Assembly: GCA_024345305.1 (NCBI GenBank) | Contig: BRON01000010.1 | Span: 1-64,000, forward strand | DNA from: Mrakia gelida | Taxonomy: Eukaryota > Basidiomycota > Tremellomycetes > Cystofilobasidiales > Mrakiaceae | Direction of reading: 5' to 3' | Length of the DNA: 64,000 nucleotides | Shown here: one piece after another, positions 1 to 29,274 of the stretch | Layout of the letters: the number at the start of each line of letters is the position of its first letter | Numbering within the stretch: position 1 is the stretch's first letter | Program-made: the position numbers and the translations under genes | Notes under the pieces: model-generated | Database searches by the model: none | What the model saw: the letters and a program-made list of their open reading frames with translations, nothing else | What the model was told of the DNA's origin: nothing

Positions 1-2
1 AC

Positions 3-479
3 GCCGTCAATCTCCGATTCAACTGGGTCGACCACCGTCCAAACCTCGATTTCTCCAGACTCGAAACGGACGATCCCCTTCCACTCGACCTCCTCACCCT
101 CTCCTTCCCAACCGAAGACGAAGATAGCCTCCTCCCAATCCTCGAAACCCTCCTCCCAATCTTCAACCCGGTCCAGTTCTCTATCTCCAGGTTCAATCGC
201 CTAAAGCGAACCGTCAAGGAGGGGGCCTCTCCTTCGTTCAGGATCGGAAGTCAGCTTCTCTGGGAGTGGACGAGGACATCCTTGATTGAGGCGAAGGGAG
301 GGCTGCCAGTCGCTCGAAGTAAATTCGCTGGTCTTCCCAACCCGAAGAAGTCGGAACGTCGTGTCTTTCGTCTTCACGTCGCGACGTTCTTGTTCGAGGA
401 GGATTTGGAGGTCGCCAACCTCGTCGATTACCTGGTGAAGTGGAGGCTAGTTTATGGGCGACGACGAGACGACCAGTAG
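3..479 (+). pseudogene. 3' fragment of an unrecognised gene, cut by element copy A
   Basis: One frame is open from base 3 to a TAG stop at 477-479. It reads as ordinary protein (near the left edge FNWVDHRPNLDFSRLETDD, later FEEDLEVANLVDYLVKWRL). The last few codons (GRRRDDQ) come from sequence that matches the helicase part of copy C starting near 22903, so the native 3' end has been replaced where copy A begins, at about 452-460. The family is not recognised. The fragment is either a host gene broken by copy A or part of an older mobile element. The left part lies outside the window. Confidence 0.45.
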
Positions 480-3400
480 GGTGACTGCGGTCGAGGAGAG
501 CTCGAAGGAGGGAGAGGAAGGTCTTGCCCGACCCAACGGGGCTGCTGAGAAGGTAATCGGTTCCTCCGCGGATGATCTTGGCAGCAGCTTCGAGCTGGTT
601 CTCATAGAGCTCCGCTGATGGGTTGCCGGTCCACTCCCGAAGAAGGCTGGTGATGACATCAGCTTGGGAGTAGGGAGGAGGAACGGGGAGAGGGGAGGGT
701 TCAGGAGGAATGCGAGGAGCCGGAGGAGGAGGAGGAGGAGGGGGACTGGATCCGTCGAAGTCGTCCATGTCGTCGTCGAAGTCGACACCGTCCGTGAGAG
801 CTTGGAGATCGAGAGGAGTCCGGCTTCTTGAGGATACCTCCACCGCACTTGATGAAAGGATCGAACTCCTCTCCTCCTCCTCCAAGACTGGATCTCTCGC
901 GCTGTCTCCTCCTCCTGACGCGTCGTCTCGACTTGGCTCCATCGGCTCGGATCCTTCGTCGTCGTACCCTGAGACTGGAGGAGGGGAGGGTGGTGCTGGT
1001 GTGGGACGTTTGAAGAGAGGTTGGGAGGAAGAGAGAGAAGAGGAGGAGGGACGCTTGGAGGAGAGCTGAAGAGAAGGAGAGGAGGAGAGACGCGTCAGTC
1101 AGGCGAGGGACGTCGAGAGAAGAGAGAAGGGAGGAAGGACTCACCGACGGATGAGAGCTACGCCCAAGAAACAGATCCAGCCTGTCGGGCAAGCGATTGA
1201 TCTTAAGAACCTGCGTAGCGGAGGGGGGAGAGGAGGGTTGGTCAGAACGAGGTGTCGCGTGAAGATCGAGAGAACGAACATGGAGGCGAAGACTCACAGG
1301 GTCCACTCCCAACGCGAGTTGATACAGGCTCACGACCCTCATCGCATTCGTCGCGTCTCCAAAAGCAGCCAAGTCCCGAATCCCACCACTGGAGTCGGTG
1401 TTTCCGTAAGCGGCCTCGTCCGTGTTGAGCGAGTGGCCTCGTTGGCTCGACTGAGTCTCCAGAGCGACGAGGAGTCCGTTGGCGTCTGATCCGAGGAGAG
1501 GGAGGATGATCCGACTGATGAAGACTTCGGCGTGTCGAACCGTTTGGAGCCCGACTCCCGACGAGGAGCCTGACAAGACGAAGGCGAGCTTGAGGTGGGA
1601 TCGGAGGTCGGCGGCGACGATCTGCTTCCCGACACCGTCTGTCCAAAGGAACGTCCTGAAGGTGGTCTGAACGGCGAGGTTGTTGTCCAGAGGGCTGAGA
1701 GAGTGGAGGAGGGAGAGAAGGTAGAGAGCGAAGGGTTGTACGACTCCGAAGAGCTGGATGACGAGAGGCACGAGGGTCGGAGACACGAAGCGATGGATGG
1801 TCTTCGTTCCTGTCTTGTTGACCTCCGTACGAATGGCGAGTCGGTTGGAGGTGATGAAGAGAGAGGAACCGTGGTCGACCGTTCGGGTGAGCTGCTGAGT
1901 AACGAGTTCCGAAGCTCGACCTCCAGGGGAGGAGAGGTGGATGGCGACGAGGAGGTTGAGCTTCGCGGCGGCGAGGGAGTGAAGGAAGGCTCGGGCGTGA
2001 GGAAGGTTGAGCTGGGGTTTGAGAGGATCTGAGGGGTTTGAGATCCAGAGCTTGGAGTTGGAGAGAGAGAGGGAGAGGAGGAGAGCCTGTTGGTTCCGAG
2101 GTATCCCGAGCTTGATGCAGTTCGATAGATCCGTGAAGATCGATCCCCCAACCTCTCCCGCAACTCCTCCGACCGTCACTCCTTCCATCGTTCGGCCAAC
2201 TGCTGAGAGGTCCGCCGAGAAGGTGAGGGTCTTGATCGAGGAAGCAGCTGATGCGATGGCTCCCTTGGCGGCCTCGGCAATAGCGGTGAGGGAGATGAAG
2301 CGGTTGTAGGAGAGGAGAGGGAGGAGGTGGCCTTCGACTGGGTCGTGGAGGGGTTGGATGGAGACGACGGGTCCAGCAGCGGTGATGGCATGGGAGATGG
2401 GATAGCGAGTAGCTCGAAGGACAACGAAGGGTGTGACTTGAGCTCCGTTGGGGTGAGCTTTGACGAGGTCGAAGAGCGGCGAGTCGAGACTGAGAAAGAA
2501 GAAAGAGAGAGAGGTCAGCGAGGCGTCTCGAACCCCAAAGCGATCAAGACAACCGACTTACCCTCTCGACACTGGCACTGCTCCAACCTCAGCTTCATCC
2601 AACTCCCTAACCTCTCCCCATCCAATCTCGTCCAGCACCAGGCGGTAGACGACGAGTCGAACGAAGAACTCGCAGGACGCGAGCTGAGGTCCGAACGATC
2701 TGATCTCCCGAAAGCCTCCTCCAGCAGCGAGGGAAAGGCAGATTAGGAACTGATCTAGGACCATCTGGCCCCGAGGAGGAGTGGATGAGTATCGAGGGGA
2801 GTAGATTGCAAGGAGGAACTGGAGGAGGGCGTCCTGAACCTCCTTCGACTCCTCGACTCCTCCTCTCCCTTCTCCTCCGACGACCCCGTTCGGCTGGGTG
2901 AGGACGTCCCTCTGGAGGACTTGACGGAGGGTGTTGGCTGCGAGTACCATCCGCTCGGTGGTGTGGAAGGAGGGAAGGTCGATGGAGGTGGTGAAGGAGG
3001 AGGAGGAGGGAGGAGGGGAGATGATTGGAGGAGGTGCGAGCTCGCCCTGAGGGATGGGGATGGGGTTTCGGTAGACCGTTGGCGTGACCCTGAGGGCAAA
3101 GAGGATGAGCGAGCTTGAATCCCTGCTGTATCGTTTGAGGGTCGAATCCGCGAGCCGCGGCTTGAAGATCCTCGTCGGTCCCTTCCCTCCTCGCTCTTCC
3201 TCGACCATGTCCTCCGAGATCTGCACCGACCCGTCCCCCATCCCGATCTTCCTCGCCACAGCAAACTCGCTCGGATTCGTCCCGTACTTCCGAACTCCTA
3301 AGGCGAGATCCTGAACGTGGACCCAGACGTTTCGCAGAGGGTCGCGGTCCTCGATTCGAGTCTTGTCCGAGGATCGGTAGTTGTGGGCGGGGGAGATGGC

Positions 3401-6267
3401 TGAGCGAAGGATGGCGAGAGGGTAGGGTCGGATGAAGGAGCCGTAGCCGAGAGGGTTCTGGTAGACTGGTTGATGGTAGAGGGAATTGTCGAGCTTGTCG
3501 CTGGGGATGGGAAGGGAGGAGAGTATCTCGTCCTGCTGCTTGAGAAGGAAGGCTGCTGATGCCGAGAGGGGATCCGATCGTGGGACCTTGGGAGGGGGAG
3601 GAGGAACGAAGTTGGTGGAGTCGTGGGAGGGAGGAGGAACGGCGAAGGCGGGGAGGTGAGTGTCAGGGAAGAGTCGTTGGGAGTAGGCGGGAGTGGGAGC
3701 GAGGTTCGTTCCTCCGTGCTTCTTGTGACGGTGGCTTCGGAGAGAGTCGCCATCCTTGCAGACCACACCACAGCTCCCACACCCTACTCCCATCCTCACG
3801 GCGATGCCCTCGACCATAGGGAAGGTCGAGGTGGGCCGTCTGGAGAGGAGCAGCTGACTTGCGAGTGTCCGATCGGAGAGGGGACCGTAGATGGAGTGGT
3901 GGAGGGAAGGTGCAAGATTGAGGAGATGGGTTGCTTCTTGAACGAGGGTTTTTCGATGGGAGGAGGGGAGGGAAGGGCAGAACTTGAGTAGGTGAGCGGT
4001 GAGGCCGGATGGTGCGACTCCTCCTCCGTACGGGTCCTCGTGGGTGGAAACGACGAGACCGATCCTTGTGTTGATGGCTAGAGAAGCAGCGTGGAGGTTG
4101 GTCGTGGCTGAGAGAGAGAGAGAGAGAGGAGAGAGAGGTCAGGGTCGGGAAACAAAATTGGGGAAAAGGAGATGAAGGACGAACAAGCGAGGCTCTCTCC
4201 TTTCCAAAACGCGACGAGTCCTTCCACGTCGAGTCTCCTGAAGCCTCCGACCCGAGCTTCGTCGTCTCTTGGCACCGTTTCTGTTGAGCCTGATGGAGGG
4301 AAGAAGGGTTGGAGGATCAGCACAAGTCCATACTCTCGATCGAGAGAGCAGAGCAAACAAGAGTGACCGAGAGAGAGAGACTCACCATCGTCCACAGAGA
4401 CCTCGCCCTCAACTCCATCCATCCCGCATGCAGCACCAACCCCTCCACCTTCTGGAAGGTTCCCATCCTCCCAACCACCACCCTCTCTCCCATCAACAAC
4501 CTCGCGTTCCTTCCTTTTCCTCGTCCCACTCAAGCTCGACCCACTCGCACTCCCTCCAACTCCCTCGCCACCACCTCCCTCGGTGTCTCCCTCTTCCTCC
4601 CCCTCGTCCATCCCAGAACCAAACCCTTCCACGTCCCCTAGGTGAGCGGTCTCCTCATCCTCCTGCTGATCCTGGGTTGGCGGAGGGAGAGCGTCGGGTT
4701 GGGGAGAGGGAGAGGGAGAGTGAACGAGAGGAGAAGGGAAGAGCGGATGGAGAGGTTCGGTGACTGTACATGTCCTCCAGTGTTTGTGTAGGGCGAAGGG
4801 CTTGGAGCATCGGTGGGGGTGGGAGTGAGGTCGAGGGCAGGTTAGGGAACCATCGTCTCCACGAAGAACTGAGAGGGAAGGTCAGGAGAGAGGGAGGGAG
4901 GAAGGAGAGAGGGAGGGAAGGAGATGAGCTTCGTGCTTCGTTCGGTGGGAAGCGAGACGTATGGAGAAAGAGAGAGCTCACCTCGGAAACCTCCAGCAAG
5001 AAGGACTTCGGCTTGATGTCGATCTTTGGTGTGTTGGTTGAGCTGAGATCGAGAGGAGAACGGTGGTAGAGTGTTGCACAACAACTTCGGGCAGGAGAAG
5101 CTCATCTGCTCGAGCGCGAACGAGAGACGGCCAATCGAGAGTCAGAACAGAGCCAAGTGGTGGGGGGATGGTATGAGAAGATTGATGTATGCGAGAAGAA
5201 CATACGTGATCAAAGAAAGAACCTGAGAGGGAAGGGGAAAGGAGGGAGAGCGAGTGAGGTGAAGGGAAGAACGATGGTCAGCTCGAGCTCGCAACTCCTC
5301 CTTCCTTCTCCTCCTTCCTTCCTTCCCTCTCCCTCTAACGCTAACCCTCCCCGGGCAGGCCACACATTTTCCGACCTCTCCCTACCTCCAACTCCATAGC
5401 GGAAAGCAAAAGACTCACTTGGATCCTACGAGAAGGTCTCTCGAGTGCTCGTTCAGCGAGGGTTCCAAAGGGGAAGGAGGGTTGGCTGAGGTTGCTTTCA
5501 AAGGAAGCTCGAGAGGGTTGTGACAGCAGATCGGGTCCGTTGGATGAATGGGAGTAGAGGAGGAGTGGGGGAGAAGTTCCTGGTAGAGAGGGAAGGGGAG
5601 GAAAGAGAGTCAGCATCGAGCTTGCTCGTGGAGGAGGGAAGGGAAGGAGGAGGGCAAGACCGAGTCATGAGCGAGCGAGCGAGCTCCTCCTTCCTTCCTT
5701 CCAACGCGAGACCTTCCCAGCATACATCCACGTTCTCAGTGGGTTCTATACACCCCAGAGGATACACTCCCAACATAGAAGCTCAAGAGAAAGGACTTCC
5801 CTTCCTTTGCGAGAGGAGGAGGGGTTGAGGAAAGGGAAGCGATAAGGGAGCGATAAGGCGAGGGAGCTCACCAAGTCTGCCGTTCGAGCACTGCTCCAGT
5901 GGGTCCTTGGGAAGGAGGCTGGCCCCTCGTAGGATCTGACAAGTTGTTGGTAAGGGGAAGTGGAAATGGAAAGGAAGGTGTCAAGGGAAGAGGTCGATGT
6001 CGATGTGGTTGGGGGAGAGAGCAGGTCCGCGACTTCTCGTCGAAGACACGCGATTGACCCGGAGCTCGTCCCCTTCGGTCCACGGCTTTGTAGATCCACC
6101 AATTTATGAAACCACCCTCCCATCGCCCAGGTCGATCCTAGAGTACCAAAGGGGCAGGAGGGTTCAGGAAGAGCGCAGCTGCTGTCGTAGGAGGTAAGCG
6201 AGGGAGGAGGGGGAGAGGGGGGGAGGTGGGGGTTGAGCTTGAACGAACGGAAAGCTCCTTTTTCCAT
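460..6267 (-). pseudogene. Copy A gene: zinc fingers, recombinase-like domain, truncated helicase
   Basis: Read on the minus strand the pieces come in this order. The 5' exons include a C2H2 finger near 5100-5010 (FSCPKLLC, then H-x4-H) and a finger-like Cys/His cluster near 4850-4775 ending HKHWRTC. The OrsD-like region runs about 4075-2560 and its finger begins GCGSCGVVC near 3790. The recombinase-like region runs about 2500-1320 (GGRASEL, NKTGTK, TVRHAE and RGHS motifs). The helicase start has Walker A (GSGKT) near 530 and the gene ends abruptly near 460. Introns equivalent to those of copy C are present (for example about 2489-2561 and 1221-1307). DEAH and everything after it are missing, so the protein cannot be an active helicase. 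A candidate start Met is at 6267, but the 5' exons are not certain. Confidence 0.65.
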
Positions 6268-6780
6268 CGGCAGGTTCGTTGCTGCTGCGAGGGGGTCGTT
6301 GCAGTAGATCCAAATATGAGAAGTAGGTATATAGACCCTAACCCCATTCGAGCGAGCAGGTTTTCCTGCTACGAAGGCTCACAGCTCCATGGGCGAGAGG
6401 AGAAGGAGCTCAGAGGTGAGCTTGAGCTCATACCTTTCAACCTCGAGACGTCGGCAAATCTTCTCTCTATAGCTAAGCCCTTTTTACGGGACATACTAGA
6501 GCTATGTACCAACGACTCCAGCTGTTTACAATCCGCGGTTTCGGCCTTGAGTATACAGAGGCGCTGAAAGAGAGAGGATGGAGCTCCTCCGAAAAGAACT
6601 CGCGGAAGTCAGCTCGAGCTCGCCCTCTTCATCGTTTTGAGGTACCTCTCGGGAGAATCGCTGTCGGCCATGCAGATCTTCTCGTACGGAGCCGTGCTTC
6701 TGATACATTGTGCTTCGTAGGTAGATCTCGCTGGTCGTTTTTCCCGTTTGTGATTTGATGGAAAGGGGAGGGAGAACGAG

Positions 6781-6900
6781 GCAACGCAAGTTGCGTATCC
6801 CTCGGAAAGCCTGTTGGAACGCTCGAGGGATACGCATGCGTACCCTCGAGGGTACGCAGGGGCCCGTTCCAACGCGTTGGAACGGCGCGCATAGGATTAG
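6781..6900. repeat. Palindromic terminus of copy A
   Basis: The sequence holds a 13-bp stem (6792-6804 with 6824-6836), a perfect 22-bp palindrome at 6837-6858 (centre CTCGAG) and a second perfect 22-bp palindrome at 6864-6885 (centre ACGCGT). A 15-nt tail follows, ending GCATAGGATTAG at 6900. The loop of the first stem carries GTTGGAACG, which repeats one arm of the second palindrome. The tail length and the two 22-bp palindromes recur in copies B and C with different bases. The next base belongs to an interrupted gag-like ORF. Confidence 0.85.
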
Positions 6901-8688: not shown

Positions 8689-10135
8689 AGCGAGTAGCTC
8701 GAAGGACGACAAAGGGTGTGACTTGAGCTCCGTTGGGGTGAGCTGTGACGAGTTCGAAGAGCGGCGAGTCGAGACTGAGAAAGAAGAAAGAGAGAGGTGA
8801 GCGACGCGTTTCGAACCCCAAAGCGATCAAGACAACCGACTTACCCTCTCGACACTAGCACTGCTCCAGCCTCAGCTTCATCCAACTCCCTAACCTCTCC
8901 CCATCCAATCTCGTCCAGCACTAGGCGGTAGACGACAAGTCGAACGAAGAACTCGCAGGACGCGAGCTGAGGTCCGAACGATCCGATCTCCCGAAAGCCT
9001 CCTCCAGCAGCAAGGGAAAGGCAGATTAGGAACTGATCTAGGACCATCTGGCCCCGAGGAGGAGTGGATGAGTATCGAGGGGAGTAGATCGCAAGGAGGA
9101 ACTGGAGGAGGGCGTCCTGAACCTCCTTTGACTCCTCGACTCCTCCTCTCCCTTCTCCTCCGACGACCCCGTTCGGCTGGGTGAGGACGTCCCTCTGGAG
9201 GACTTGACGGAGGGTGTTGGCTGCGAGTACCATCCGCTCGGTGGTGTGGAAGGAGGGAAGGTCGATGGAGGTGGTGAAGGAGCAGGAGGAGGGAGGAGGG
9301 GAGATGATTGGAGGAGGTGCGAGCTCGCCCTGAGGGATGGGGATGGGGTTTCGGTAGACCGTTGGCGTGACCCTGAGGGCAAAGAGGATGAGCGAGCTTG
9401 AATCCCTGCTGTATCGTTTGAGGGTCGAATCCGCGAGCCGCGGCTTGAAGATCCTTGTCGGTCCCTTCCCTCCTCGCTCTTCGTCGACCATGTCCTCCGA
9501 GATCTGCACCGACCCGTCCCCCATCCCGATCTTCCTCGCCACAGCAAACTCGCTCGGATTCGTCCCGTACTTCCGAACCCCTAAGGCGAGATCCTGAACG
9601 TGGACCCAGACGTTTCGCAGAGGGTCGCGGTCCTCGATTCGAGTCTTGTCCGAGGACCGGTAGTTGTGGGCGGGGGAGATGGCTGAGCGGAGGACGGCGA
9701 GAGGGTAGGGTTGGATGAAGGAGCCGTAGCCGAGAGGGTTCTGGTAGACTGGTTGGTGGTAGAGGGAATTGTCGAGCTTGTCGCTGGGGGTGGGAAGGGA
9801 GGAGAGTATCTCGTTCTGCTGCTCGAGAAGGAAGGCTGCTGATGCTGAGGAGGGATCCGATCGTGGGACCTTGGGAGGGGGAGGAGGAACGAGGTTGATG
9901 GAGTTGTGAGACGGAGGAGGAACGGCGAAGGCGGGGAGGTGAGCGTCGGGGAAGAGTCGTTGGGAGTGAACGGAAGCGGAGGAGAGATTCGTTCCTCCGT
10001 GCTTCTTGTGACGGTGGCTTCGGAGGGAGTCGCCATCCTTGCAGACCACACCACAGCTCCCACACCCTACTCCCATCCTCACGGCGATGCCCTCGACCAT
10101 AGGGAAGGTCGAGGTGGACCGTCTCGAGAGGAGCA
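8689..10135 (-). pseudogene. Copy B OrsD-like exon remnant
   Basis: The frame encodes the OrsD/DUF3505-like finger (MVEGIAVRMGVGCGSCGVVC, with His residues downstream) and the following roughly 400 residues, almost identical to copies A and C. The 70-bp intron with GTAAGT donor is kept near 8838-8770. The frame then runs out where copy B is truncated at 8689. At the right the frame runs directly into the retrotransposon LTR. No enzymatic domain remains. Confidence 0.7.
10131..10135. repeat. Target site duplication, left copy (GAGCA)
   Basis: GAGCA directly precedes the LTR at 10136 and is repeated at 16437-16441 directly after the other LTR. Copy A has a single GAGCA at 3848-3852 at the matching position. 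Confidence 0.95.
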
Positions 10136-10494
10136 TGTGAGGATCGAGCGAGGAGCGGGGATGGCGAGGGAACGAGAGCGACGCGACGAAGAGAAGTCAG
10201 GTGCTTATCGAGGAACGAGGACGAGGTATGATCCAAAGGTGATTCAAGATAGAGGTTAGAAAGTGAAAAGCGAGGCGAACATATTTAAGGGAGGCGAAGC
10301 GATCAAAGGGAAGAAAGAACAAAAGACTTTGAAGGCTGAAACGATAACAGGGGAAGAGTTATGAACAAAGGGACAAAGGCAGAACGCGTAGCTGAGAACA
10401 AAGGACTAGTAGCGGTGAAAGGGAAGTAGGGGGAAGAAAGGGAAAGAGTAAGGGAGAGTGAAACAAGAAGGAGCTGAAACCTGATTCCCTGACA
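10136..10494 (-). repeat. LTR (3' LTR in element orientation)
   Basis: The 359-bp copy begins TGTGAGGATC and ends CCCTGACA in plus orientation. I see no difference from 16078-16436. Confidence 0.95.
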
Positions 10495-10506
10495 TAATCC
10501 CCCATC
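10495..10506 (-). other. Polypurine tract of the retrotransposon
   Basis: On the minus strand the bases directly upstream of the 3' LTR read GATGGGGGATTA. This is the expected place and composition of a plus-strand primer tract. Confidence 0.65.
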
Positions 10507-10525
10507 TAAGACGCGAAGGTCTCTC

Positions 10526-10605
10526 GAGCGTCTAAGAACCTTTCCTAGGGCGAGCATCCTTGTGAGAGCGTCTAAGAACCTTTCCTAGGGCGAGCATCCT
10601 TGTGA
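10526..10605. repeat. 40-bp tandem duplication at the pol 3' end
   Basis: Two head-to-tail copies (10526-10565 and 10566-10605) of a unit containing TCTAAGAACCTTTCCTAGGG. The pol stop codon falls at the start of the second copy (10572-10574), so the first copy lies in the 3' untranslated part. Confidence 0.9.
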
Positions 10606-13600
10606 GAGCGAAGATAAGAGTTGAGAACTCGAAGTCGAGCAAGTCCGTTGGCCGGTTCCCAAGTGTCGTCGAAATCTTGATATCCTTCCCAGTGAACGAG
10701 GTAGTAGGTTCCGTCAGGACGATGTTCGTGAGCGAGGATCCGTTCCGGGATGAAGTGTTCCTGGGATTCGAATTCAATGATGGGAGGAGGATCCTGATGC
10801 TGATCGTGGAGGCCGGGAGAGTAAGGGAGGAGGAGCGAGACGTGGAAGACGGGATGAATTTGGAGGGTAGGGGGAAGGTCCAGGACGAAGGTGATTGGGG
10901 ACAGTTTCTTGACAATGGGGAAGGGACCGAGATTTCGTGCGTCGAGCTTGAACGAGGGCCGAGCGGTGGAGATGTTTCTGGAGTTGAGCCAAACGAGATC
11001 CCCGACGTTGAAGAGGTCGACCTCCTTTCCATCCTTGTCGCGTCGAATTGGAGCCCGATGTTTCCGATCGTAGTACTGTTTTTGGAGGTCTTGCGCGTGG
11101 ATGATTGAGTGGTGGATAGAGGAGTGGACTTTGGCGAGAGCGAGGATTTCGGTGTTGGCGGCGGGGTTGTGAGAGGTTGCGGTGAGGAGGAAGTCGGAGG
11201 GAGCCAAAGGATGGTAACCATGATCCGCGAAGAAGGGAGATTCGAGGGTGGTGGCCGAGCGAGAGTTGTTGAGAGCGAAGGCGCATGTTGGGAGGAGTCC
11301 GGACCAGTTCGATTGGTTGTAGTCGCAAAACATCCGAAGGTAAGTTTCCGTTGCTTGATTCGTCTTTTCCGTTTGGCCGTTTCCTTGAGGGTGGAACGCC
11401 GTAGTAAAGTGAGGACGAACGCCGAGGAGTTGGATGAAGGAGGTGAAGAAGGAGGAGGTGAAGGTAGTTCCGCGATCCGAGAGGATGTCTGTTTGAAGAC
11501 CGTGATGAGCGACGACGTGGTTAAGGTACATTTTGGCGAGATCCGACGCGTTGAATCCATCTTCCTTATAAGGGACGAGGACGACCATCTTGGAGAAGCG
11601 ATCGACGAAGACCTGAATGCAGTCGAATCCGTTGGAGAGAGGGAGCTTGACGATTCCGTCCATCGAAATTTGGCGCCAGGGAGCAAGTGGAGGAGGGATA
11701 GGTTGGAGGAGGCCGAGGGGGAGTTGTCGCGAGGGTTTGTTTCGAGCGCAGGTATCACAACCCGCGACGTAGGTTCCGACGAAATCCGAGTCCAGAGGGA
11801 AGATGAAGGATCGTCGAAGGAGGTCGTGCGTCTTGGTTCGTCCGAGGTGACCAGCAAGGAGGGTGTTGTGGCAGGAGCGAACGATGTCGAGGCGAAGTTG
11901 GTGATCGTTGGGTACTCGGATGAGTTCCTTGAAGAGGATGAGGTCGAGGGTTGGGTGGAGTGAGAAGTCTCGGAGGAGGATGAAGTTGTCGTATTCTAGA
12001 GGGAGCGTCGGGTTCCGGAGGAGCTGTCCGATTTCGTCGAGCGAAGGGTCGAGGGAAGTAGCGCGACGAATGCGTCCGACAAGGTCGGGATCCGGATCGG
12101 CAGGTTGAGGGTCGAGGGAGGGAGCGAGGATTGAGGGAGGAGGTTGAGGTGCAGGCGAGGGAGGAGGTTGAGGGCCGAGGGAGGGAGCGAGGATTGAGGG
12201 AGGAGGTTGAGATGCAGGGACGAGGGAGGGAGCGAGGATCGAGGGAGGAGGTTGAGGTGCAGGGTCGAGGGAGGGAGCGAGGATCGAGGGAGGAGGTTGA
12301 GGTTGTTGAGGTTTCGAGAGTGAAAGGCGAGTGGATGTTCGGATTGGCCGAGAGCCTTGAGCAATAGATAGATGTGGAGGAGTGTTGATAGCCGGGGTAA
12401 GGTTGACGAAGGGTTCCGAGGGAGGATGGGGAGGAGCGACGAGTTGACCAGGCTTGAGGACGCGTTGAGGGGCTTGTTGAGAAGCTCTACTCCCCTCTGA
12501 AAGACCCGATCGTCTCGAGAGGGCATCCGGAAGTTCCATCTTAGTTCCCTGTTTGTAGTGAATGACGAAGGAGAAGTTTCCGAGGAGTTCGCACCAGCGA
12601 GCTTGTCGACGCGTGAGGACCTTGGACGAATTGAAGTATTGAAGGGCCTCGTGGTCGGAGTGAATGGTGAGGGTTGACGGGTGTCCTTCACAGTAGTGTC
12701 TCCATTCCTTGAGGCACTCAACGATGGCGAGCATCTCCTTGTCGTGGATTTCGTAGTTGAGTTCGGCGGGGTTGAGTTTTCGAGAGTAGAAAGCGATGGG
12801 GTGGTTGAATTCGTTGGTGGGAGAGCGTTGGGAGAGGATTCCGGCGATAGCGAAGTCGGACGCGTCGGTTTCGAGGAGGAGTGGGAGTGAGGGATCGAAG
12901 ACGGTGAGGACGGGAGCGGTGGTGAAGGCGGTTTTGAGTTTGTTAAAGGCGGAGAGAGCGTCGCGTCCAAAGTCGAAGGGGACGTCTTTTCGAAGGAGGG
13001 AGGTGAGGGGAGCGGCGATGTCCGAGAAGTGATGGATGAAGCGGCGATAGAAGTTGGCGAATCCAAGGAAGACCTGAATATCCTTGACCGAGGAGGGAGG
13101 GGACCATTCGAGGATAGCGGAGACCTTGTTCTTGTCCATTCGAACTCCATTTCGACCGACGACGTAACCGAGGAAGTCAACCTCCTCCTTGTAGAACTCA
13201 CACTTCTCCGGTTTGACCCAGAGTTGTGCTTCTTGAAGAGCCTTGAGGATGACGGAGACGTGTTGAGTGTGTTCGGCGAGGGAGTTGGAGTAGATGAGGA
13301 TGTCGTCGAGGTAAACGATGCAGAAGATGTCGAGGTGTTGGCGAAGGGTGTCGTTCATAAAGTGCTGGAAGGCGGCGGGAGCGTTGGTGAGGCCGAAGGG
13401 CATGACGGTGTATTCGAAGTGGCCGTAACGACAGCGGAAGGCGGTTTTCCACTCGTCTCCAGGAGCGATCCGAACGAGGTTGTATGCTCCACGAAGATCG
13501 AGTTTGGTGAAGAATTTTGCCTTGGAGAGTCGATCGAGGGATTCGGGGATGAGGGGGAGAGGGTAGCGATTCTTGAGGGTGATCTTGTTGAGTCCTCGGT

Positions 13601-14879
13601 AGTCGACGCAAAGGCGAAGAGATCCGTCCTTCTTTTTGACGAAAAGGATGGGAGCTCCAGCAGGAGAGGTTGAGTGTCGAATGAATCCTTTGGTGAGGTT
13701 TTCGTCGATGAAGGTCTTGAGAGCGTCGAGTTCCGTGGCGGAGAGTCCGTAGATGTGTTGGAAGGGAGGAGTGGAGCCGGATTCGGTGTTGATCTTGAGG
13801 TCGTAGGATCGATGAGGAGGGAGGATGTCGGCGGAGGATTTTTCGAAGACTGAGCGATAGGGAAGGAACTCGGGAGGGAGGTGTTTGTCGAGGTTGAAGG
13901 TTGGATCCGAGGGAGGTTCCTCTCCTGAGCGAGGAGGAGAGATGTCGACAGGAACGGGGGAATAGTTGGCTGAGAGAGAGTAGACGTTCTTGAATGCTCC
14001 TGCCTTGGCGGCTTGAGTGAAGGCGGCAGCGGAAATGATGGATATTTGAGGGAGAGGCGAGGTTGGGGGCGAGGGAGATGCGACGGTGGGCCGCGTCGAG
14101 GGTCTTGGTTTGCTGGGAGGAGGCTTGCTGAGGGAAGGAGGTTTTGGCGATGGGTGGAATGATGAGGGAAGGGAAGAGAGTGGAGTGGGGGTGGAAGCTG
14201 TTGGGAAGCGAAGATTCCGATCCGCGATAGGTGGGAGGCAGTGATAGTCGCAGTGGTCCGAGAGGAAGTCAAGCGAGTGGGTGCTCCATCCGATTGTTGG
14301 TTCGTGTTTTTTGAGCCAGGGGATTCCGAGGATGATGGGGTAGGATCCGAGGGTAGTGATGTCGAAGGAGAGGGTTTCGGAGTGAAGTGGCGATGAGGAG
14401 GTGACGGAGAAAGGGAGTGGAGAGGTGTGGTGGGTGACGGCGCCAGAGGAGATGGAACGACCATCAACAACGACGAGTTCCCGAGGAATGGGTTTGGCGA
14501 CCGTTTTGAGGGAATGGGCGGAGACGAAGGTAGAGTCGACGAAGTTTGAGGTAGCTCCGGAGTCCAGCATCGCGAAGGTCTTGACGGCGAAAGACCCGAA
14601 GCCCAGCGAGACTTCGATAACGAGGTGATCCTCCTCTGAGAAGATCGTCTCGAGCGCAAGGATTTCGAAGGGGTTTGGATGGATGAAAGGTGAGAGCGAG
14701 TTGGAGAGGGAGTTGAGGGAGATGTTGAGAGGGGAGGGAGTGGTAAGACGACCGGGGTGAGGATGGGAAGTCGATTTGGAGTTGGCGACCAGAGAGGAGT
14801 TTGGTAGGTTTATAGTTGACGAGGACGAGAGCGAGGACCGGTGATTGTTGGGCTGAGCGAAGGGGGAAGGCTGTGGCCT
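10572..14879 (-). CDS. pol: Retrotransposon Pol: protease, RT, RNase H, integrase, chromodomain
   Basis: The frame continues from gag after one TGA (14880-14882) without another stop for 1435 codons. Numbered from the Met in the protease motif (14570), the pieces are: aspartic protease DSGATSNF at 3-10; reverse transcriptase about 240-430 with VDYRGLNK, FGLTNAPA and the catalytic YLDDILIYS; RNase H about 540-680 with ETDASDF and HSDHEALQYF; a proline-rich repeat linker about 750-820; integrase with an HHCC-type start (ending CDTCARNK), ISMDG, LSDRGTTF and NGQTEKTNQATE carrying the D,D,E set; a GPF motif (LGPFPIVKKL); and a C-terminal chromodomain (YYLVHWEGYQDFDDTWEP). Products would be made as Gag-Pol in virus-like particles and integrate the cDNA; the chromodomain is known in this group to bind modified histone tails. 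The Met at 14570 is probably not a real start. Confidence 0.95.
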   Translation of the reverse strand, partial: RPQPSPFAQPNNHRSSLSSSSTINLPNSSLVANSKSTSHPHPGRLTTPSPLNISLNSLSNSLSPFIHPNPFEILALETIFSEEDHLVIEVSLGFGSFAVKTFAMLDSGATSNFVDSTFVSAHSLKTVAKPIPRELVVVDGRSISSGAVTHHTSPLPFSVTSSSPLHSETLSFDITTLGSYPIILGIPWLKKHEPTIGWSTHSLDFLSDHCDYHCLPPIADRNLRFPTASTPTPLSSLPSSFHPSPKPPSLSKPPPSKPRPSTRPTVASPSPPTSPLPQISIISAAAFTQAAKAGAFKNVYSLSANYSPVPVDISPPRSGEEPPSDPTFNLDKHLPPEFLPYRSVFEKSSADILPPHRSYDLKINTESGSTPPFQHIYGLSATELDALKTFIDENLTKGFIRHSTSPAGAPILFVKKKDGSLRLCVDYRGLNKITLKNRYPLPLIPESLDRLSKAKFFTKLDLRGAYNLVRIAPGDEWKTAFRCRYGHFEYTVMPFGLTNAPAAFQHFMNDTLRQHLDIFCIVYLDDILIYSNSLAEHTQHVSVILKALQEAQLWVKPEKCEFYKEEVDFLGYVVGRNGVRMDKNKVSAILEWSPPSSVKDIQVFLGFANFYRRFIHHFSDIAAPLTSLLRKDVPFDFGRDALSAFNKLKTAFTTAPVLTVFDPSLPLLLETDASDFAIAGILSQRSPTNEFNHPIAFYSRKLNPAELNYEIHDKEMLAIVECLKEWRHYCEGHPSTLTIHSDHEALQYFNSSKVLTRRQARWCELLGNFSFVIHYKQGTKMELPDALSRRSGLSEGSRASQQAPQRVLKPGQLVAPPHPPSEPFVNLTPAINTPPHLSIAQGSRPIRTSTRLSLSKPQQPQPPPSILAPSLDPAPQPPPSILAPSLVPASQPPPSILAPSLGPQPPPSPAPQPPPSILAPSLDPQPADPDPDLVGRIRRATSLDPSLDEIGQLLRNPTLPLEYDNFILLRDFSLHPTLDLILFKELIRVPNDHQLRLDIVRSCHNTLLAGHLGRTKTHDLLRRSFIFPLDSDFVGTYVAGCDTCARNKPSRQLPLGLLQPIPPPLAPWRQISMDGIVKLPLSNGFDCIQVFVDRFSKMVVLVPYKEDGFNASDLAKMYLNHVVAHHGLQTDILSDRGTTFTSSFFTSFIQLLGVRPHFTTAFHPQGNGQTEKTNQATETYLRMFCDYNQSNWSGLLPTCAFALNNSRSATTLESPFFADHGYHPLAPSDFLLTATSHNPAANTEILALAKVHSSIHHSIIHAQDLQKQYYDRKHRAPIRRDKDGKEVDLFNVGDLVWLNSRNISTARPSFKLDARNLGPFPIVKKLSPITFVLDLPPTLQIHPVFHVSLLLPYSPGLHDQHQDPPPIIEFESQEHFIPERILAHEHRPDGTYYLVHWEGYQDFDDTWEPANGLARLRVLNSYLRSHKDARPRKGS
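12118..12305 (-). repeat. Proline-rich 15-residue tandem repeats inside Pol
   Basis: About four to five near-identical units of 45 bp encode QPPPSILAPSL followed by a short variable spacer (DPA, VPA, G, D). They sit between RNase H and integrase and probably act as a flexible linker. Unit number is likely to vary by slippage. Confidence 0.85.
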
Positions 14880-15971
14880 TCATTCCAAAGCGGGAAGAGG
14901 GGTGACCGTTGCCGAGGGAAGTGCGTCGGTTCCGTATTCCAAAGCGGAAAGCTGATGTTGTCGTCGATTCGCCGCGAGAGGACAGGTGATTGCGAAGTGA
15001 CCCGTTCCACCACAGTATCCGCAGAGTCCGAGAGTTCGTCGGCGAAGTTTTTCGGCGTCGGTGAGAGGTCCTCGAGGTCGAGAAGTAGTCGCGTCGACGT
15101 CCATTGGAGTTGGTCCAGAGGAGAGGGTGGAGTTTCGAGGGAGGAAGTTGGTGACGGGGAAAGGCTGTTTTCGACGGTTGTAAAGGAGGGTGTCCCATCG
15201 GATTGAAGTGTTGATGAGGGTTTCCAAGTCGGTGAAGTCGGTGGAGAGAGGGTTGAGGATTCGATCCTTGACGTCGTCCTTGAGTCCGTCGTAGTAGGCA
15301 TGTCGAAGAGACTGATCGCTCATCTCGAGGGAGGAAGCGAAGCGTCGGAAGTCGATGGCGTAAGTGGTGCAGGGTCCTGTTTGTTTGAGTTTGGCGAGGG
15401 AGCGTCGAGAGGTTTCAATGAGGTCCGCGTCTCCGAAGTCTTGGAGGAACTTCTTCTTGAAGAGAATCCAATCCTGAGACCAGTTGGGAGGAGTCTCGTC
15501 ATCCTTGAGATCGAGAGCCGGTCGGATCCAGTGAAAGGCGGTGTCCTTGAGGTAGGTAACGACGAAGGTGATCTTGGCCGAGTCGGAGGAGTAGGATCGA
15601 GGTTGGACTTTGAAGACGAGTTCGCACTTGATGAGGAATTCCCTCGCTTCGGAAACTTTTCCGGTGAAGGGAGTAGGAGGAGCGACCTTGGGCTCCTTGG
15701 GTTCTTGAGCGTAGGGGACGGAGGAATTGTGGAGGGAGGAATTGACCGAAGAGGGGAGTTGAGCTTGAAGTTGGTGGACGAGTTGGACGAGTTCCTCCTG
15801 TTGAGCTTGAGCTTGAGCAAGTGCCTGTTGCTGTTGATCGAGGTTGGTCCTGAAGCGGTTGGAGGCGACGTCATGTTGGTCTTGTTGCCATCTGAGGGCG
15901 TCGGAAAACCATCCTGGAGAGTTCGTTTCGTGCTCAGAGCTGAAAGCAGGAGAGGAGGCGTCGGAGGACAT
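14880..15971 (-). CDS. gag: Retrotransposon Gag
   Basis: The 363-residue frame from the ATG at 15971 begins MSSDASSPAF. It contains a Gln-rich helix (QQQQALAQAQAQQEELVQLV), a Gag-type core (FTGKVSEAREFLIKCELVF, later DWILFKKKFLQDFGDADL) and a CCHC knuckle CGYCGGTGHFAITC near the end. It terminates at TGA 14882-14880. The same frame is open upstream to an ATG at 16178 inside the LTR, which would add 69 residues. That start lies only about 15 nt after the predicted transcript start, so both starts are possible. Gag would form the particle and its knuckle would bind RNA. Pol is in the same frame, so one stop codon is all that separates them. Confidence 0.92.
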   Translation of the reverse strand: MSSDASSPAFSSEHETNSPGWFSDALRWQQDQHDVASNRFRTNLDQQQQALAQAQAQQEELVQLVHQLQAQLPSSVNSSLHNSSVPYAQEPKEPKVAPPTPFTGKVSEAREFLIKCELVFKVQPRSYSSDSAKITFVVTYLKDTAFHWIRPALDLKDDETPPNWSQDWILFKKKFLQDFGDADLIETSRRSLAKLKQTGPCTTYAIDFRRFASSLEMSDQSLRHAYYDGLKDDVKDRILNPLSTDFTDLETLINTSIRWDTLLYNRRKQPFPVTNFLPRNSTLSSGPTPMDVDATTSRPRGPLTDAEKLRRRTLGLCGYCGGTGHFAITCPLAANRRQHQLSALEYGTDALPSATVTPLPALE

Positions 15972-16066
15972 GTTGTTGTTGTTGGGGGAAGAGAGTTGGA
16001 ATAGGCGAGTTGGCTGGGGGGTGGGGTTGTTGGAGGATTGGTGATAAGCAGGCGACCGGTTTGTTG

Positions 16067-16077
16067 ATCTTGAATTA
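16067..16077 (-). other. Primer binding site, self-priming type
   Basis: Two bases inside the 5' LTR the minus strand reads ATTCAAGAT (16075-16067). It has no TGG start and no likeness to a tRNA 3' end that I can see. It is the exact reverse complement of ATCTTGAAT in the LTR (minus strand 16192-16184), near the predicted transcript start. This is the arrangement known for Tf1/sushi elements, whose RNA 5' end folds back to prime. Confidence 0.65.
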
Positions 16078-16436
16078 TGTGAGGATCGAGCGAGGAGCGG
16101 GGATGGCGAGGGAACGAGAGCGACGCGACGAAGAGAAGTCAGGTGCTTATCGAGGAACGAGGACGAGGTATGATCCAAAGGTGATTCAAGATAGAGGTTA
16201 GAAAGTGAAAAGCGAGGCGAACATATTTAAGGGAGGCGAAGCGATCAAAGGGAAGAAAGAACAAAAGACTTTGAAGGCTGAAACGATAACAGGGGAAGAG
16301 TTATGAACAAAGGGACAAAGGCAGAACGCGTAGCTGAGAACAAAGGACTAGTAGCGGTGAAAGGGAAGTAGGGGGAAGAAAGGGAAAGAGTAAGGGAGAG
16401 TGAAACAAGAAGGAGCTGAAACCTGATTCCCTGACA
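16078..16436 (-). repeat. LTR (5' LTR in element orientation)
   Basis: The 359-bp copy shows no difference from 10136-10494 on visual comparison. It holds the promoter (TTAAATATGT on the minus strand, 16230-16221) and the putative self-primer sequence. Confidence 0.95.
16221..16230 (-). promoter_or_regulatory. TATA-like promoter in the 5' LTR
   Basis: The minus strand reads TTAAATATGT. A start 25-35 bp downstream would fall at about 16186-16205, on or just before the 9-nt self-primer at 16192-16184. Confidence 0.55.
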
Positions 16437-16441
16437 GAGCA
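16437..16441. repeat. Target site duplication, right copy (GAGCA)
   Basis: Direct repeat of 10131-10135 flanking the retrotransposon. Confidence 0.95.
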
Positions 16442-18800
16442 GCTGACTTGCGAGTTTCCGATCGGAGAGGGGAGCGTAGATGGAGTGCTTGAAGGAGTTT
16501 GCGAGGTTCAGGAGGAGGGTTGCTTCTCGGACGAGGGTTTTTCGATGGGAGGAGGAGAGGGAAGGGCAGAACTTGAGTAGGTGAGCGGTGAGTCCGGATG
16601 GTGCGACTCCTCCTCCGTACGGGTCCTCGTGGGTGGAAACGACGAGACCGATCCTCATGTTGATGGCTAGAGAAGCGGCGTGGAGGTTGGTCGTGGCTGC
16701 GAGAGAGAGAGAAAAAGAAAGGAAGATCAGGATCGGGAAGCAAGAGATTGGAGAGAAGGAGATGAAGGACGAACAAGCGAGGCTCTCTCCTTTCCAAAAC
16801 GCGACAAGTCCTTCCACGTCGAGTTTCCTGAAGCATCCAATCCCAGCTTCGTCGTCTCTTGGCACCGATGCTGTTGAGCCTGATGGAAGGAAGAAGGGTT
16901 TAAAGATCAGCACAGGTCCATACTCTCGAGCGAGAGAGCAAACGAGAGTGACGGAACAGGACGCGAGAGACTCACCATCGTCCGAAGAGACCTCACCGAC
17001 GACACCATCAATCCCACAAACCCCACCCTCCGCTTCGTCTTCCAGACAGTTCCTATCCTCCCCACCACTACCCTCCCTCCCATCAACAACCTCGTGTTCC
17101 TTCCCCTTCCTCGTCCCACTCAAGCTCGACCCACTCGCACTCCCTCCAACTCCCTCGCCACCACCTCCCTCGGTCTCTCCCTCTCCCTCCCCCTCGTCCA
17201 TCCCATAACCAAAACCTTCCCCGTCCCCTAGGTGAGCGTTCTCCTCCTCCTCCTCCTGATCCTGGGTTGGCAGAGGGGGAGTGTCGGGTTGGGGAGAGGG
17301 AGATGGAGAGTGAACGAGAGGAGAAGGGAAGAGCGGGTGGAGAGGTTCGGTGAGGATGCAGATCTTCCAGTGCTTATGAAACGCGTTTGGGGTACGGGAA
17401 AAGTGAGGTTCCGAGTGAGGTCGAGGGCAGGAGAACGATCTGTTGGTTCCACGCGGCACTGAGAGGGATGGGGGAGGGAGAACGAGAGGAAGGGAGGAAC
17501 GGGATGAGTGTTGGGCTTGAACGGAACCTACACGGAGAAGATGTGTGCAAGCGCACCTTTGAGACCTCCAGCAAGACGAATTTCAGCTTGATGAACATCC
17601 TTCACATGCTGGGTGAGTTTAGCAAGGGTGGAGAAGGGTGAGAGGGCATGGCAGATCGCTCTTGAGCATGGGAAGCTCATCTGCTCGAGCACGAACGAGA
17701 GAAGGTCAATCGAAAGTCAGAACAGAACCAAGTGGAGGGTGGATAGTATGAGAAGATTGAGGTATGCGAGGGCAACTTACGGTACTGAAGAAAGAACCTG
17801 AGAGTGCAAGGGGAAGGAGGGAGAGCGAGCGAGGTAGAGGGAAGAACGATGGTCAGCTCGAGCTCGCAACTCCTCCTTCCTTCTCCTTCCTTCTGCAAAG
17901 GCAGGTGACACCTCATCCCACCTCCCCTACCTCCAACTGAAAGCGAAAGACTCACTTGAGTCCACGAGAAAGTCTCTCGAGAGCTCGTTCAGCGAGGGTT
18001 CCAAAGGGGAAGGAGGTTTGGCTGAGGTCGCTTTCGAAGGAAGCTGAAGAGGGTTGTAGAATTGGATCGGATCCGTTGGATGGCTAGGAGTAGAGGAGGA
18101 GTGGAGGAGAAGTTCCTGGTGGGAGAAAAGTGGAGGAAAGGGGTCAGCATCGAGCTCGCTCATGAAGGAGGGAAGGGAAGGAGGAGCGGAAGACCGAGTC
18201 ATAAGCGAGCGAGCGAGCGACGAGCTCCTCCCTTCTTCCTTCAAACGAGAGACCTTCCCAGCATGCATCCACCTTCTCAGTGGGTTCTATTCACCCCAAA
18301 GGATACTCTCCCAACATGGAAGCTCGAGAGAAAGGACTTTCCTTCCTTTGCGAGAGGAGGAGGGGTTGAGGAAAGGGAAGCGATGAGGAAGCGATAAGGC
18401 GAGGGAGCTCACCAAGGCTGCCGTTCAAGCACTGCTCCAGTGGGCCCTTGGGAGGGATGCTACTCCCTCGTACGAGCTGACAAGTTGTTGGTAGAGGAAG
18501 TGGGAAATGGAAAGGAAGTGGTCAAGGGAAGAGGTCGATGTGGTTGGGGGAGAGAGCAGCTCCGCAACTTCTCGTCGAAGACACGCGGTTGACTCGGACC
18601 TCGTCCCCTTCGGTCCACGGCTTTGTAGATCCATCGATGTATGAAACCACCCTCCCATCGCCCAGGTCAATCCTATAGTACCAAAGAGGCAGGAGGCCCG
18701 AGAAGAGTCCAGCTGCTGTTGTAGGAGGTAAGCGAGGGAGGAGGGGGAGGGGGGAGGAGATGGGGGTTGAGCTTGAACGAACGAGAGGGCCCTTCCATCG
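16437..18800 (-). pseudogene. Copy B 5' exons (zinc-finger region) separated from their gene
   Basis: The exon after the retrotransposon reads INMRIGLVVSTHEDPYGGG and belongs to the OrsD-like domain. Upstream exons follow: REYGPVLIFKPFFLPSGSTA near 16940-16870, and a Gly/Glu/Ser-rich acidic exon about 17459-16975 that starts MPRGTNRSFSCPRPHSEPHF with a finger-like HKHWKIC. Further 5' exons continue to about 18800, where MEGPSRSFKLNPH is a plausible start. The retrotransposon sits between these exons and the finger exon at 10135. Exon phases in 17600-18800 are not resolved. Confidence 0.5.
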
Positions 18801-19336
18801 ACAGGTTCGCTGCCGCTGCGCAACGACTCTAGCAGTAAATCGAAATCTGAAAACATATTAGTCAGAGGCCGGATATAAAGAACACGTTCCTCCTTCGAGC
18901 GAGCAAATTTTCTTACCACGAGGCTCAGACTCGCATAGGAAAAAGGAGGAGGAGCTGGGAGGTGAGCTTGAGCTTATACCTTTCAACCTCGAGACGTCGG
19001 CAAATCTTCACTCTAGAGCTAAGCCCTCTTTAGGGGACATACTAGAGCTATGTACCAACGACTCCAGCTCTTTACAATCCGCGGTTTCGGCCTTGAGTAT
19101 ACAGAGAAGCTGAAAGAGAGAGGATGGAGCTCCTCCGAAAAGAACTCGCGGAAGTCAGCTCGAGCTCACCCTCTCCTTCGTTTTGAGGTACCTCTCGGGA
19201 GAATCGCTGTCGACGATGCAGATTTTGTTCTAGAGAGCTGTGCTTCTGATACATTGTGCTTCATGGGTAGATCTCGCTGGTCGTGTTTCCCGTTTGCGAT
19301 TCGGTGGAAGGAGGAAGGAGAACGAAGCGACGCAAA

Positions 19337-19447
19337 GTCCGGGTAGTCCAAAAAGGGCTGCTGGAACGGTCGGACTACCCGGATCCGGGTAGTCGACTCC
19401 ACGGAATCGACCGTTCCTGGAGGCAGGAACGGGGCGCATACGGTTAG
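19337..19447. repeat. Palindromic terminus of copy B
   Basis: An 11-bp stem pairs 19339-19349 with 19372-19382. A perfect 22-bp palindrome lies at 19373-19394 (centre GGATCC). A 22-nt inverted repeat at 19411-19432 has 9-bp arms and loop GAGG. A 15-nt tail ends GCATACGGTTAG at 19447. The loop of the first stem carries GGAACGGTC, the complement of one arm region of the second repeat. Confidence 0.85.
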
Positions 19448-20606: not shown

Positions 20607-20912
20607 GATGGGGGTTGAGCTTGAACGAACGAGAGGGCCCTTCCATCGACAGGTTTGCTGCCGCTGCGCAACGACTCTAGCAGTAAATCGAAATCTGAAA
20701 ACATATTAGTCAGGAGGCCGGATATAAAGAACACGTTCCTCCTTCGAGCGAGCAACTTTTATTACCACGAGGCTCAGACTCGCATAGGAGAAAGGAGGAG
20801 GAGCTGGGAGGTGAGCTTGAGCTCATACCTTTCAACCTCGAGACGTCGGCAGATCTTCACTCTAAAGCTAAGCCCTTTTTACGGGACATACTAGAGCTAT
20901 GTACCAACGACT
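20607..20912 (-). repeat. Displaced fragment of the composite element's right-end region
   Basis: It is nearly identical to copy B about 18752-19057 (from GGGGGTTGAGCTTGAACG to CCAACGACTCCA). It then breaks abruptly to unrelated sequence at about 20913, without the palindromes. It abuts the left side of copy C. Confidence 0.75.
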
Positions 20913-21011
20913 CCAACTTCAGACAAGAGACATCAAAGAGAACCGGAGAAGAAACGAAAGCGGAGCGCAACAAGATTCAAAACCAGTACAGAAAGAGGAG
21001 GACACGAGTTA

Positions 21012-29164: not shown

Positions 29165-29274
29165 TCCGGGTAGTCCAAAAAGGGCTGCTGGAACGGTCGG
29201 ACTACCCGGATCCGGGTAGTCGACTACACGGAATCGACCGTTCCTGCTAGCAGGAACGGACGGCATACGGTTAG
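29165..29274. repeat. Palindromic terminus of copy C
   Basis: An 11-bp stem is followed by a perfect 22-bp palindrome at 29200-29221 (centre GGATCC) and a second perfect 22-bp palindrome at 29238-29259 (centre CTAG). A 15-nt tail ends GCATACGGTTAG at 29274. Spacing is the same as in copy B. Confidence 0.88.

Follow-up and report, generated by a model that had tools for sequence, protein, structure and literature searches.

The window, that is the whole stretch of 64,000 nucleotides analysed here, covers the leftmost 64 kb of a contig of 1.6 Mb in a genome of 34.9 Mb, and contains three copies (A, B and C) of a subtelomeric element (Table 1). The element's gene is encoded on the minus strand, reads toward the telomere, and comprises an OrsD/zinc-finger-like part, a middle part and a DEAH-helicase part. 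On the plus strand, each copy terminates in a structured end with the common layout x'0-y1-x1-x'2-x3-y'2-y3-tail, read toward a terminal TTAG, where x' and y' denote the reverse complements of x and y.

Table 1. Positions of the element copies, their structured ends and the exons of copy C within the window
Feature	Position	Strand	Basis or remark
Copy A of the element	1..6900	-	Cut by contig start; gene reads toward telomere
Copy A hairpin H1	6792..6836; arms x'0 6792-6804, x1 6824-6836	+	Fold, covariation
Copy A palindrome 1, hairpin H2 (arms x'2/x3), TGCGTACCCTCGAGGGTACGCA	6837-6858	+	Read directly, fold, covariation
Copy A palindrome 2, hairpin H3 (arms y'2/y3), CCGTTCCAACGCGTTGGAACGG	6864-6885	+	Read directly, fold, covariation
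Copy A 15-nt tail, CGCGCATAGGATTAG	6886-6900	+	Last base is the joint
Copy B of the element	8689..19447	-	Telomere-side break at 8689, not a TTAG joint; interrupted by LTR retrotransposon
Copy B structured end	19338..19447	+	Fold, covariation
Copy B H1 arms	19338-19350/19371-19383	+
Copy B perfect x1/x'2 palindrome	19373-19394
Copy B H2	19384-19405	+	Two mismatches
Copy B H3	19411-19432	+	Loop GAGG
Copy B tail	19433-19447	+
Copy C of the element	19448..29274	-	Telomere side cut exactly where copy B's TTAG joins
Copy C helicase exon (DEAD/DEAH-box)	22183..23496 (ends approximate)	-	Profile match
Copy C middle exon (tyrosine-recombinase-like signature)	23730..24919	-	Ordered residues
Copy C exon with weak OrsD / C2H2 zinc-finger match	24991..26690 (start approximate)	-	Profile match; splice sites read
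Copy C structured end	29165..29274	+	Fold, covariation
Copy C H1 arms	29165-29177/29198-29210	+
Copy C perfect x1/x'2 palindrome	29200-29221
Copy C H2	29211-29232	+	One mismatch
Copy C H3	29238-29259	+	Loop CTAG
Copy C tail	29260-29274	+

A four-arm end in copies A, B and C

The arms of each end form three hairpins. H1 pairs x'0 with x1 and holds y1 in its loop (in copy A, y1 is GTTGGAACG), H2 pairs x'2 with x3, and H3 pairs y'2 with y3. Folded as single-stranded DNA, the ends of A, B and C gave z scores of -7.3, -4.3 and -5.0, respectively, with none of 200 shuffles of each being as stable; a control stretch just upstream of copy A gave -1.25.

The two perfect 22-bp palindromes of copy A, from which the preliminary description of this DNA started, are evident in the letters themselves, and the 15-nt distance that it counted from palindrome 2 to the terminal TTAG is the same in all three copies. 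Its further statement that the palindrome bases of A are unlike those of B and C is correct for palindrome 1 but not for palindrome 2, whose outer seven bases are the same in A, B and C. Likewise, the layout that it saw as common to the three copies exists as a four-arm design, but the perfect palindrome 1 is formed by a different arm pair in A. In A it consists of x'2/x3, whereas in B and C the perfect palindrome consists of x1/x'2 and lies 11 nt further from the end. Because the perfect palindrome of B and C thus uses other arms than that of A, the three copies display different pairs of one four-arm design. Ends of the B type have one or two mismatches in H2, and palindrome 2 of copy B is imperfect, its 4-nt centre GAGG not being self-complementary. 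The first stem of copy A does use the bases of palindrome 1, as had been proposed, apart from one position, where TGCGTATCCCTC has one extra base.

Position and pairing of the ends across the genome

Searching the whole genome for the tail pattern GGAACGG-N(1-4)-GCATA-N(1-5)-TTAG yielded 74 tails, and the reversed-pattern control yielded 0. Similarity searches of the DNA, by comparison, scored 40/102 and 40/112 candidates. Ends were read at 72 places and joints were analysed at 68. The tails are concentrated near chromosome termini, with 72/74 at most 40 kb from a contig end, in a zone that makes up about 6% of the genome, and 73/74 point inward, away from the nearest contig end. Altogether, 33 contig ends carry tails; some contigs start or end without telomere repeat. 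One outlier (C15:1069024) lies 197 kb from a contig end, near a middle exon with an inner stop, and another (C23:131272, on a 187-kb contig) is the one tail with the opposite direction.

Because the tail pattern includes one arm of palindrome 2, ends without that arm escape it. A second anchor, positioned about 200 nt upstream and independent of the palindromes, identified 70 places, of which 1 was spurious and 69 were kept. Among these, 63 ends have both hairpins entirely in Watson-Crick pairs and the tail, three, identical to one another, contain a G-T pair in H2 (palindrome 1), and three are damaged (C6:2051055, C13:1348028 and C14:15882). Termini lacking the palindromes, or bearing them at random distances from TTAG, were looked for in this set, and 66 of the 69 ends have the palindromes in place, the three with the G-T pair included. 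At the C17:6280 end, palindrome 1 is deleted. Of the 72 ends read, 65 have a tail of 15 nt and 7 have one of 16 nt. Two small stretches beside GCATA vary within several hairpin types, with CG, GG, CA, CT, GT, GA or AC before it and CC, CG, GG, GC, TC or CCC after it.

Pairs were counted over 39 of the 41 distinct end haplotypes; C2_3188123, a 42-nt unit, and C17_6280 were omitted. Paired cells amount to 491/507 in H1, 337/351 in H2 and 349/351 in H3 (96-99%), and pairs altered on both sides occur at 8 of 13, 6 of 9 and 2 of 9 pairs, respectively. With shuffled partners, the mean number of paired cells fell to 373 (H1), 242 (H2) and 322 (H3), and with partners slid by 1-3 columns, 19-50% were paired. 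The arm pairs exist in nine versions for H1, nine for H2 and three for H3. These counts strongly support that pairing is kept despite replaced letters, and with them the earlier proposition that structure is preserved while sequence is exchanged. Selection and template-switch correction would both preserve pairing and would look alike within one genome. G-T pairs are rare (H1 3/491, H2 1/337, H3 0/349), a near-absence that fits DNA better than RNA.

Other pairings of the arms were scored in the same way. The alternative stem x1:x'2 is also kept (343/351 cells), as is y1:y'2 (442/507 cells), the latter hardly exceeding its shuffles (mean 431). An outer closing stem between GCGAC and the tail was rejected, as 55/195 cells were paired against a shuffle mean of 58.

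The loops and arms also vary as modules. The H3 loop is flipped, reading GAGG in 20 ends and its exact reverse complement CCTC in 4, and the H2 loop occurs in both orientations, CTGG and CCAG. In a table of x and y types covering 70/72 ends (C2_3188123 and C17_6280 omitted), two y classes were distinguished, and all but one of the seven x types are found with each of them. Although y1 and y'2/y3 lie on opposite sides of x1-x'2-x3, they belong to the same class in 70/70 ends, with classes that were set post hoc; when the two scored bases are compared individually, y1 and y3 agree in only 40/70 ends.

Joints, arrays and the gene of the element

Among the 68 joints read, 60 have distinct flanks after TTAG. 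The first base after TTAG (+1) at these 60 is G in 37, A in 17, C in 6 and T in none. Empty sites, defined by an uninterrupted relative of the flank whose match begins at most 4 bases from the joint, were present in the DNA examined for 45/68 joints, representing 37 distinct sites. The base at -1, lost before the break and read from the best-matching relative, is G at 36/37 empty sites; at 8 of these 36, some other relatives carry another base. The single exception is a telomere repeat, at which TTAG is followed by CCCTAACCC. Further out, position -2 is G in 1/37 and A in 20/37, and position -3 is T in 3/37. Plain microhomology with TTAG at the joint was rejected, given the rarity of T at -3 and the purine that follows the joint. 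Rather, the needed G, the rare T at -3 and the following purine point to a target preference H-G^R and not to a longer homology with TTAG.

At four joints, which have two distinct flanks, the target is telomere repeat and the target G is absent; three of the four are identical and are probably recombination copies. Two targets carry joints of different hairpin types (C5_2052371 with C16_1238774, and C4_12321 with C4_14419), which indicates either reuse of a target or a later exchange of the unit. Together, these observations support the TTAG site as the joining end of a subtelomeric element. The preliminary description had offered an interchangeable recombination or replication site as one source of the conserved structure, and the part of that suggestion that stands is a joining end, with 60 distinct joints and an HG^R target.

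The opposite side of the units behaves differently. In the four contiguous arrays examined (C4:1-16500, C7:1-10900, C1:1-10400 and the right 13.3 kb of C10), the units stack head to tail: at 9 of 11 joints the flank is a further unit or the telomere repeat of one, and at the other 2 it is sequence unmatched in the DNA examined; no target remainder distal to a unit was seen in these arrays. Each older unit stops at the point where the next TTAG starts, as copy C does in the window; copy B is instead broken at 8689 by other DNA. The breaks, assessed at 28/68 joints, map to 23 distinct positions of the reference copy C, its own start included, with no departure from uniformity (KS p = 0.27). At six contig ends, telomere repeats begin at five different positions within a single colinear outer region, and no second fixed end was found there on the outer side, only telomere repeat. 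Because the repeats begin at varying outer positions, the element has one fixed end; another was not found. Short units of about 3-4 kb do not contain the gene and long units of about 8-10 kb do, and tiny units of 21 nt (C1:3231367, C17:6259) and 42 nt (C2:3188123) lie between successive tails.

Several other sequences were noted. A unit of about 350 bp (window 19446-19798 and homologues) is tandemly repeated in the outer part of several short elements. Between the joint of copy A and the broken end of copy B at 8689 (CACAG|CGAGTAGC) lies a segment of other origin (window 6901-8688). Near C3:2327837-2329710, copy A recurs together with the beginning of this flank, and the middle exon is again broken at its start in the same way; a duplication of the block from one chromosome end to another is therefore probable. 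At C1:1-1023, about 1 kb precedes the telomere repeats that begin near 1024; it reads like a cloning-vector ccdB region and is presumably an assembly leftover. At C22:227600-229000, interspersed TTAGGG tracts, most of them followed by TTCTATAGTCATATCAATACG, form a separate repeat of telomere-like tracts.

The gene's outer two parts match known families to different degrees. The OrsD/C2H2 match is weak (E 6e-4, below the gathering score), and the helicase exon matches the DEAD/DEAH box with E 2e-6; only DEAD/ResIII families score above cut-off for this exon, with no RecQ model among its NCBIfam hits and no PDB hit. The middle exon (396 amino acids) contains, in order, GGRASEL, NKTG, VRHA and GHS-x7-Y, motifs that correspond to boxes of XerC/XerD-type tyrosine recombinases. 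A signature built from these motifs, with the lysine omitted and designed after seeing the protein, was run against 319 ORFs of at least 100 amino acids, drawn from the window and from six loci of E. coli and phages. It retrieved 6 of them: both window copies, FimB, FimE, XerD and XerC; lambda Int, Cre and IntS did not match. It occurred in none of 200,000 shuffles of the exon, and a looser pattern occurred in 15. A diverged relative at C3:2253205-2253788 (59-73% identity) keeps NKTG, VRHA and GHS...AYG.

Of the 40 genome matches to the middle exon that were scored, 29 are full-length and none of the 29 has an inner stop. Over 8 distinct copies (28 pairs), the middle exon has a pN/pS of 0.145, and on this measure the gene is constrained.

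Homology searches with the middle exon returned no family in Pfam at a cut-off as loose as E 10, no match among PDB sequences, no protein-database homologue among the candidates scored (8000, 7989 and 4798), no match to viral contigs, and an hmmsearch score not above shuffles. Profile searches of the genome with PF00589 and PF11917 gave no match; since PF11917 matched none of the control genomes either, its negative result carries no information. The hhalign probability was 0.1, although the alignment set VRHA against the FimB box-II arginine. Two AlphaFold models of this domain reached a pLDDT of 34.8 and 37.2, too low for a fold search, and the best 50 Foldseek rows for each contained no tyrosine recombinase. 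The second model, at pLDDT 37 too low to count as evidence, places two helices and three strands before further helices, the order expected of a tyrosine recombinase. The tyrosine-recombinase assignment, suggested by ordered motifs and lacking statistical homology support, is tentative and forms the weak link of what follows. A search for known RNAs in Rfam produced a single hit, a mycobacterial sRNA (22 bits versus a gathering score of 45), which we judged to be due to chance.

A proposed folded joining end and its alternatives

OrsD domains occur in fungal proteins of the telomere-linked (RecQ-type) helicase (TLH) kind, and the element shows its weak OrsD match, 29 full-length middle exons among 40 scored matches near contig ends, and a DEAD/DEAH helicase exon in the window copies. 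It resembles the TLH regions of U. maydis, M. oryzae and A. bisporus, described in PMC7473861 and PMC12857005, in being a subtelomeric, multicopy helicase gene with truncated copies and telomere association. By place and rough domain content, the element is a TLH-type region. It differs in that the available text of both papers describes no palindromic end of this kind for TLH regions, and in that its helicase gives general DEAD/ResIII hits only, with no RecQ model. For the Agaricus subtelomeric RecQs, no domain besides the helicase core is reported in the passages of PMC7473861 considered, and the words 'hairpin' and 'tyrosine recombinase' are absent from the available text of the FoTeR paper (PMC12857005).

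Among working systems, the closest analogue of the element end is the integron attC site with its integrase IntI. According to PMC8946536, attC sites have very limited sequence conservation and an imperfect palindromic organisation, are recognised as folded single-stranded DNA and are resolved by replication. In both attC and the element end, shape and palindromes are conserved and the sequence is variable. Integron cassettes, however, are bacterial and are captured at attI, whereas the element is an intron-bearing gene at chromosome ends with a putative integrase.

Two further systems share parts of this arrangement. Like the units here, the Y' elements of Saccharomyces are arranged in tandem in the subtelomere, carry a helicase gene and are in part separated by telomere repeats, but the element has a precise structured end that joins 60 different sequences. 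The terminal repeats of parvoviruses and AAV have interleaved arms, a hairpin-shaped end, and flip and flop loop orientations, all of which recur in the element end; by contrast, no virus genes were recognised in the element, no Rep was found in the ORFs scanned, and its end lies inside the chromosome. Among the matches listed in the literature covered, mostly outside subscription journals, no title or start of abstract described such an end, and no paper was found with both OrsD and tyrosine recombinase.

Our preferred reading, for which we see even chances, is that the structured end is the fixed, inward-lying terminus of a mobile element that resides at chromosome ends and has just this one defined end, and that the element joins via a folded DNA end by means of its own recombinase-helicase. 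Its outline is suggested by the roughly 110 nt of three-hairpin DNA that precede the constant TTAG, with targets that are diverse but HG^R. The element's protein would recognise the folded strand by shape, as integron integrases do attC, and such recognition would leave the arm letters free to change in step. A cut at TTAG would be followed by joining to an HG^R site that is exposed or has itself been cut, and the remainder of the unit would be copied, transferred or exchanged as far as the telomere of the donor. The target would lose its own distal part, so that repeated rounds would build arrays. The likeliest agent would be the element's own protein, in which a tyrosine-recombinase-like middle domain is joined to a DEAH-box helicase, by which the folding strand could be exposed. 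That it is indeed a tyrosine recombinase with a helicase that recognises the folded strand by shape and grafts the unit together with its telomere onto cut or eroded ends is a narrower version of this reading, which we hold to be less likely than not. Chromosome ends would probably be rebuilt here by an unfamiliar, DNA-based route.

TLH genes lie at the chromosome ends of many fungi, and their spread and persistence there are poorly explained. Since the unit combines a precise structured end with a target motif and a candidate enzyme, both questions can be tested at the bench. If the narrower version is true, the element would be a eukaryotic counterpart of integron attC recombination, with chromosome ends renewed by a DNA element without reverse transcription. 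Recognition of the end by shape would carry folded-strand recombination over from integrons to a eukaryote, and a DNA-based route would join the small number of mechanisms by which chromosome ends are known to be renewed. Even should the enzyme have been guessed wrongly, the nine arm versions in which a single site has kept its pairing within one genome constitute a rare natural experiment in palindrome evolution.

We consider it unlikely, though deserving of real weight, that the TTAG end is instead a passive boundary of subtelomeric blocks that spread by host break-induced replication or illegitimate recombination, in the manner of yeast Y' units, with template switching correcting the palindromes. 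Template switching corrects and inverts short palindromes, and the inverted loops and the arms altered together match its products. Block duplication does occur, as identical joints on several chromosome ends demonstrate (four copies of the 20998 joint and the three identical telomere joints), and break-induced replication and illegitimate recombination are the host routes by which Pyricularia chromosome ends are mended (PMC8381367). A passive boundary, however, does not account for the exactness of the end across 60 distinct joints or for the G at -1 in 36/37 sites, and the agreement of y1 with y'2/y3 in 70/70 ends also speaks against it, with the reservation that the classes are post hoc and letters are equal in 40/70. 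An ordinary internal insertion via the circle of a tyrosine-recombinase element, Crypton- or Starship-like, with later loss of the distal remainder, would account for the recombinase-like signature; in Starships the gene starts near the fixed end, as it does here. We regard this as very improbable, given that no distal target remainder was seen in the four contiguous arrays, that 73/74 units share one orientation and that no second fixed end was found, and we reject a typical Crypton or Starship identity because the arrays and ends examined contain no two-sided insertion and no two defined ends. Helitrons terminate at their 3' end in a hairpin and a short tail, and the hairpin, short tail and TTAG of the element resemble this terminus. 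H3 stands 15 nt before the end in 65/72 ends, and the end is TTAG, not CTRR. A Helitron-like rolling circle, in which an HUH nuclease would cut at a CTRR-like 3' end about 15 nt after a hairpin, is nevertheless scarcely credible. The target is HG^R and not A|T, the gene reads away from the structured end, and the outer side shows telomere repeat at five positions (six ends) instead of a second fixed end. Moreover, no Rep or Helitron family was found in the ORFs scanned, and the sole H-x-H motif of the three main exons sits in the helicase exon. Lacking an HUH Rep in these ORFs and a second end, a Helitron identity was rejected.

RNA-primed addition of the HeT-A, MoTeR or FoTeR type would invoke a plus-strand RNA that ends in ...GUUAG-3' with 3' hairpins, and a reverse transcriptase acting in trans. 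The element shares the anatomy of such telomeric retroelements (HeT-A/TART, MoTeR, FoTeR), with a constant internal end, a variable telomere-side cut-off and head-to-tail tandem arrays, and a single base, the C needed at the chromosomal 3' end, could provide the priming. For FoTeR, target-primed reverse transcription (TPRT) is proposed and co-localisation with TLH genes is described (PMC12857005). Several observations make this mechanism quite unlikely here. The element ORFs scanned, which left some small ORFs aside, contain no reverse transcriptase, and the required RNA would be antisense to the only recognised gene. The hairpins are nearly Watson-Crick-only, unlike those of RNA under pairing selection, the loop flips are hard to explain by addition from RNA, and the purine preference at +1 is not predicted by it.

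The reverse transcriptase found in the window belongs to an LTR element inside copy B. This Ty3/gypsy LTR retrotransposon with a chromodomain (window 10137-16436) lies within the gene of copy B, and its two LTRs have 360 identical bases. Together with the flanking duplication GAGCA, identified by eye, this identity suggests that the insertion is recent.
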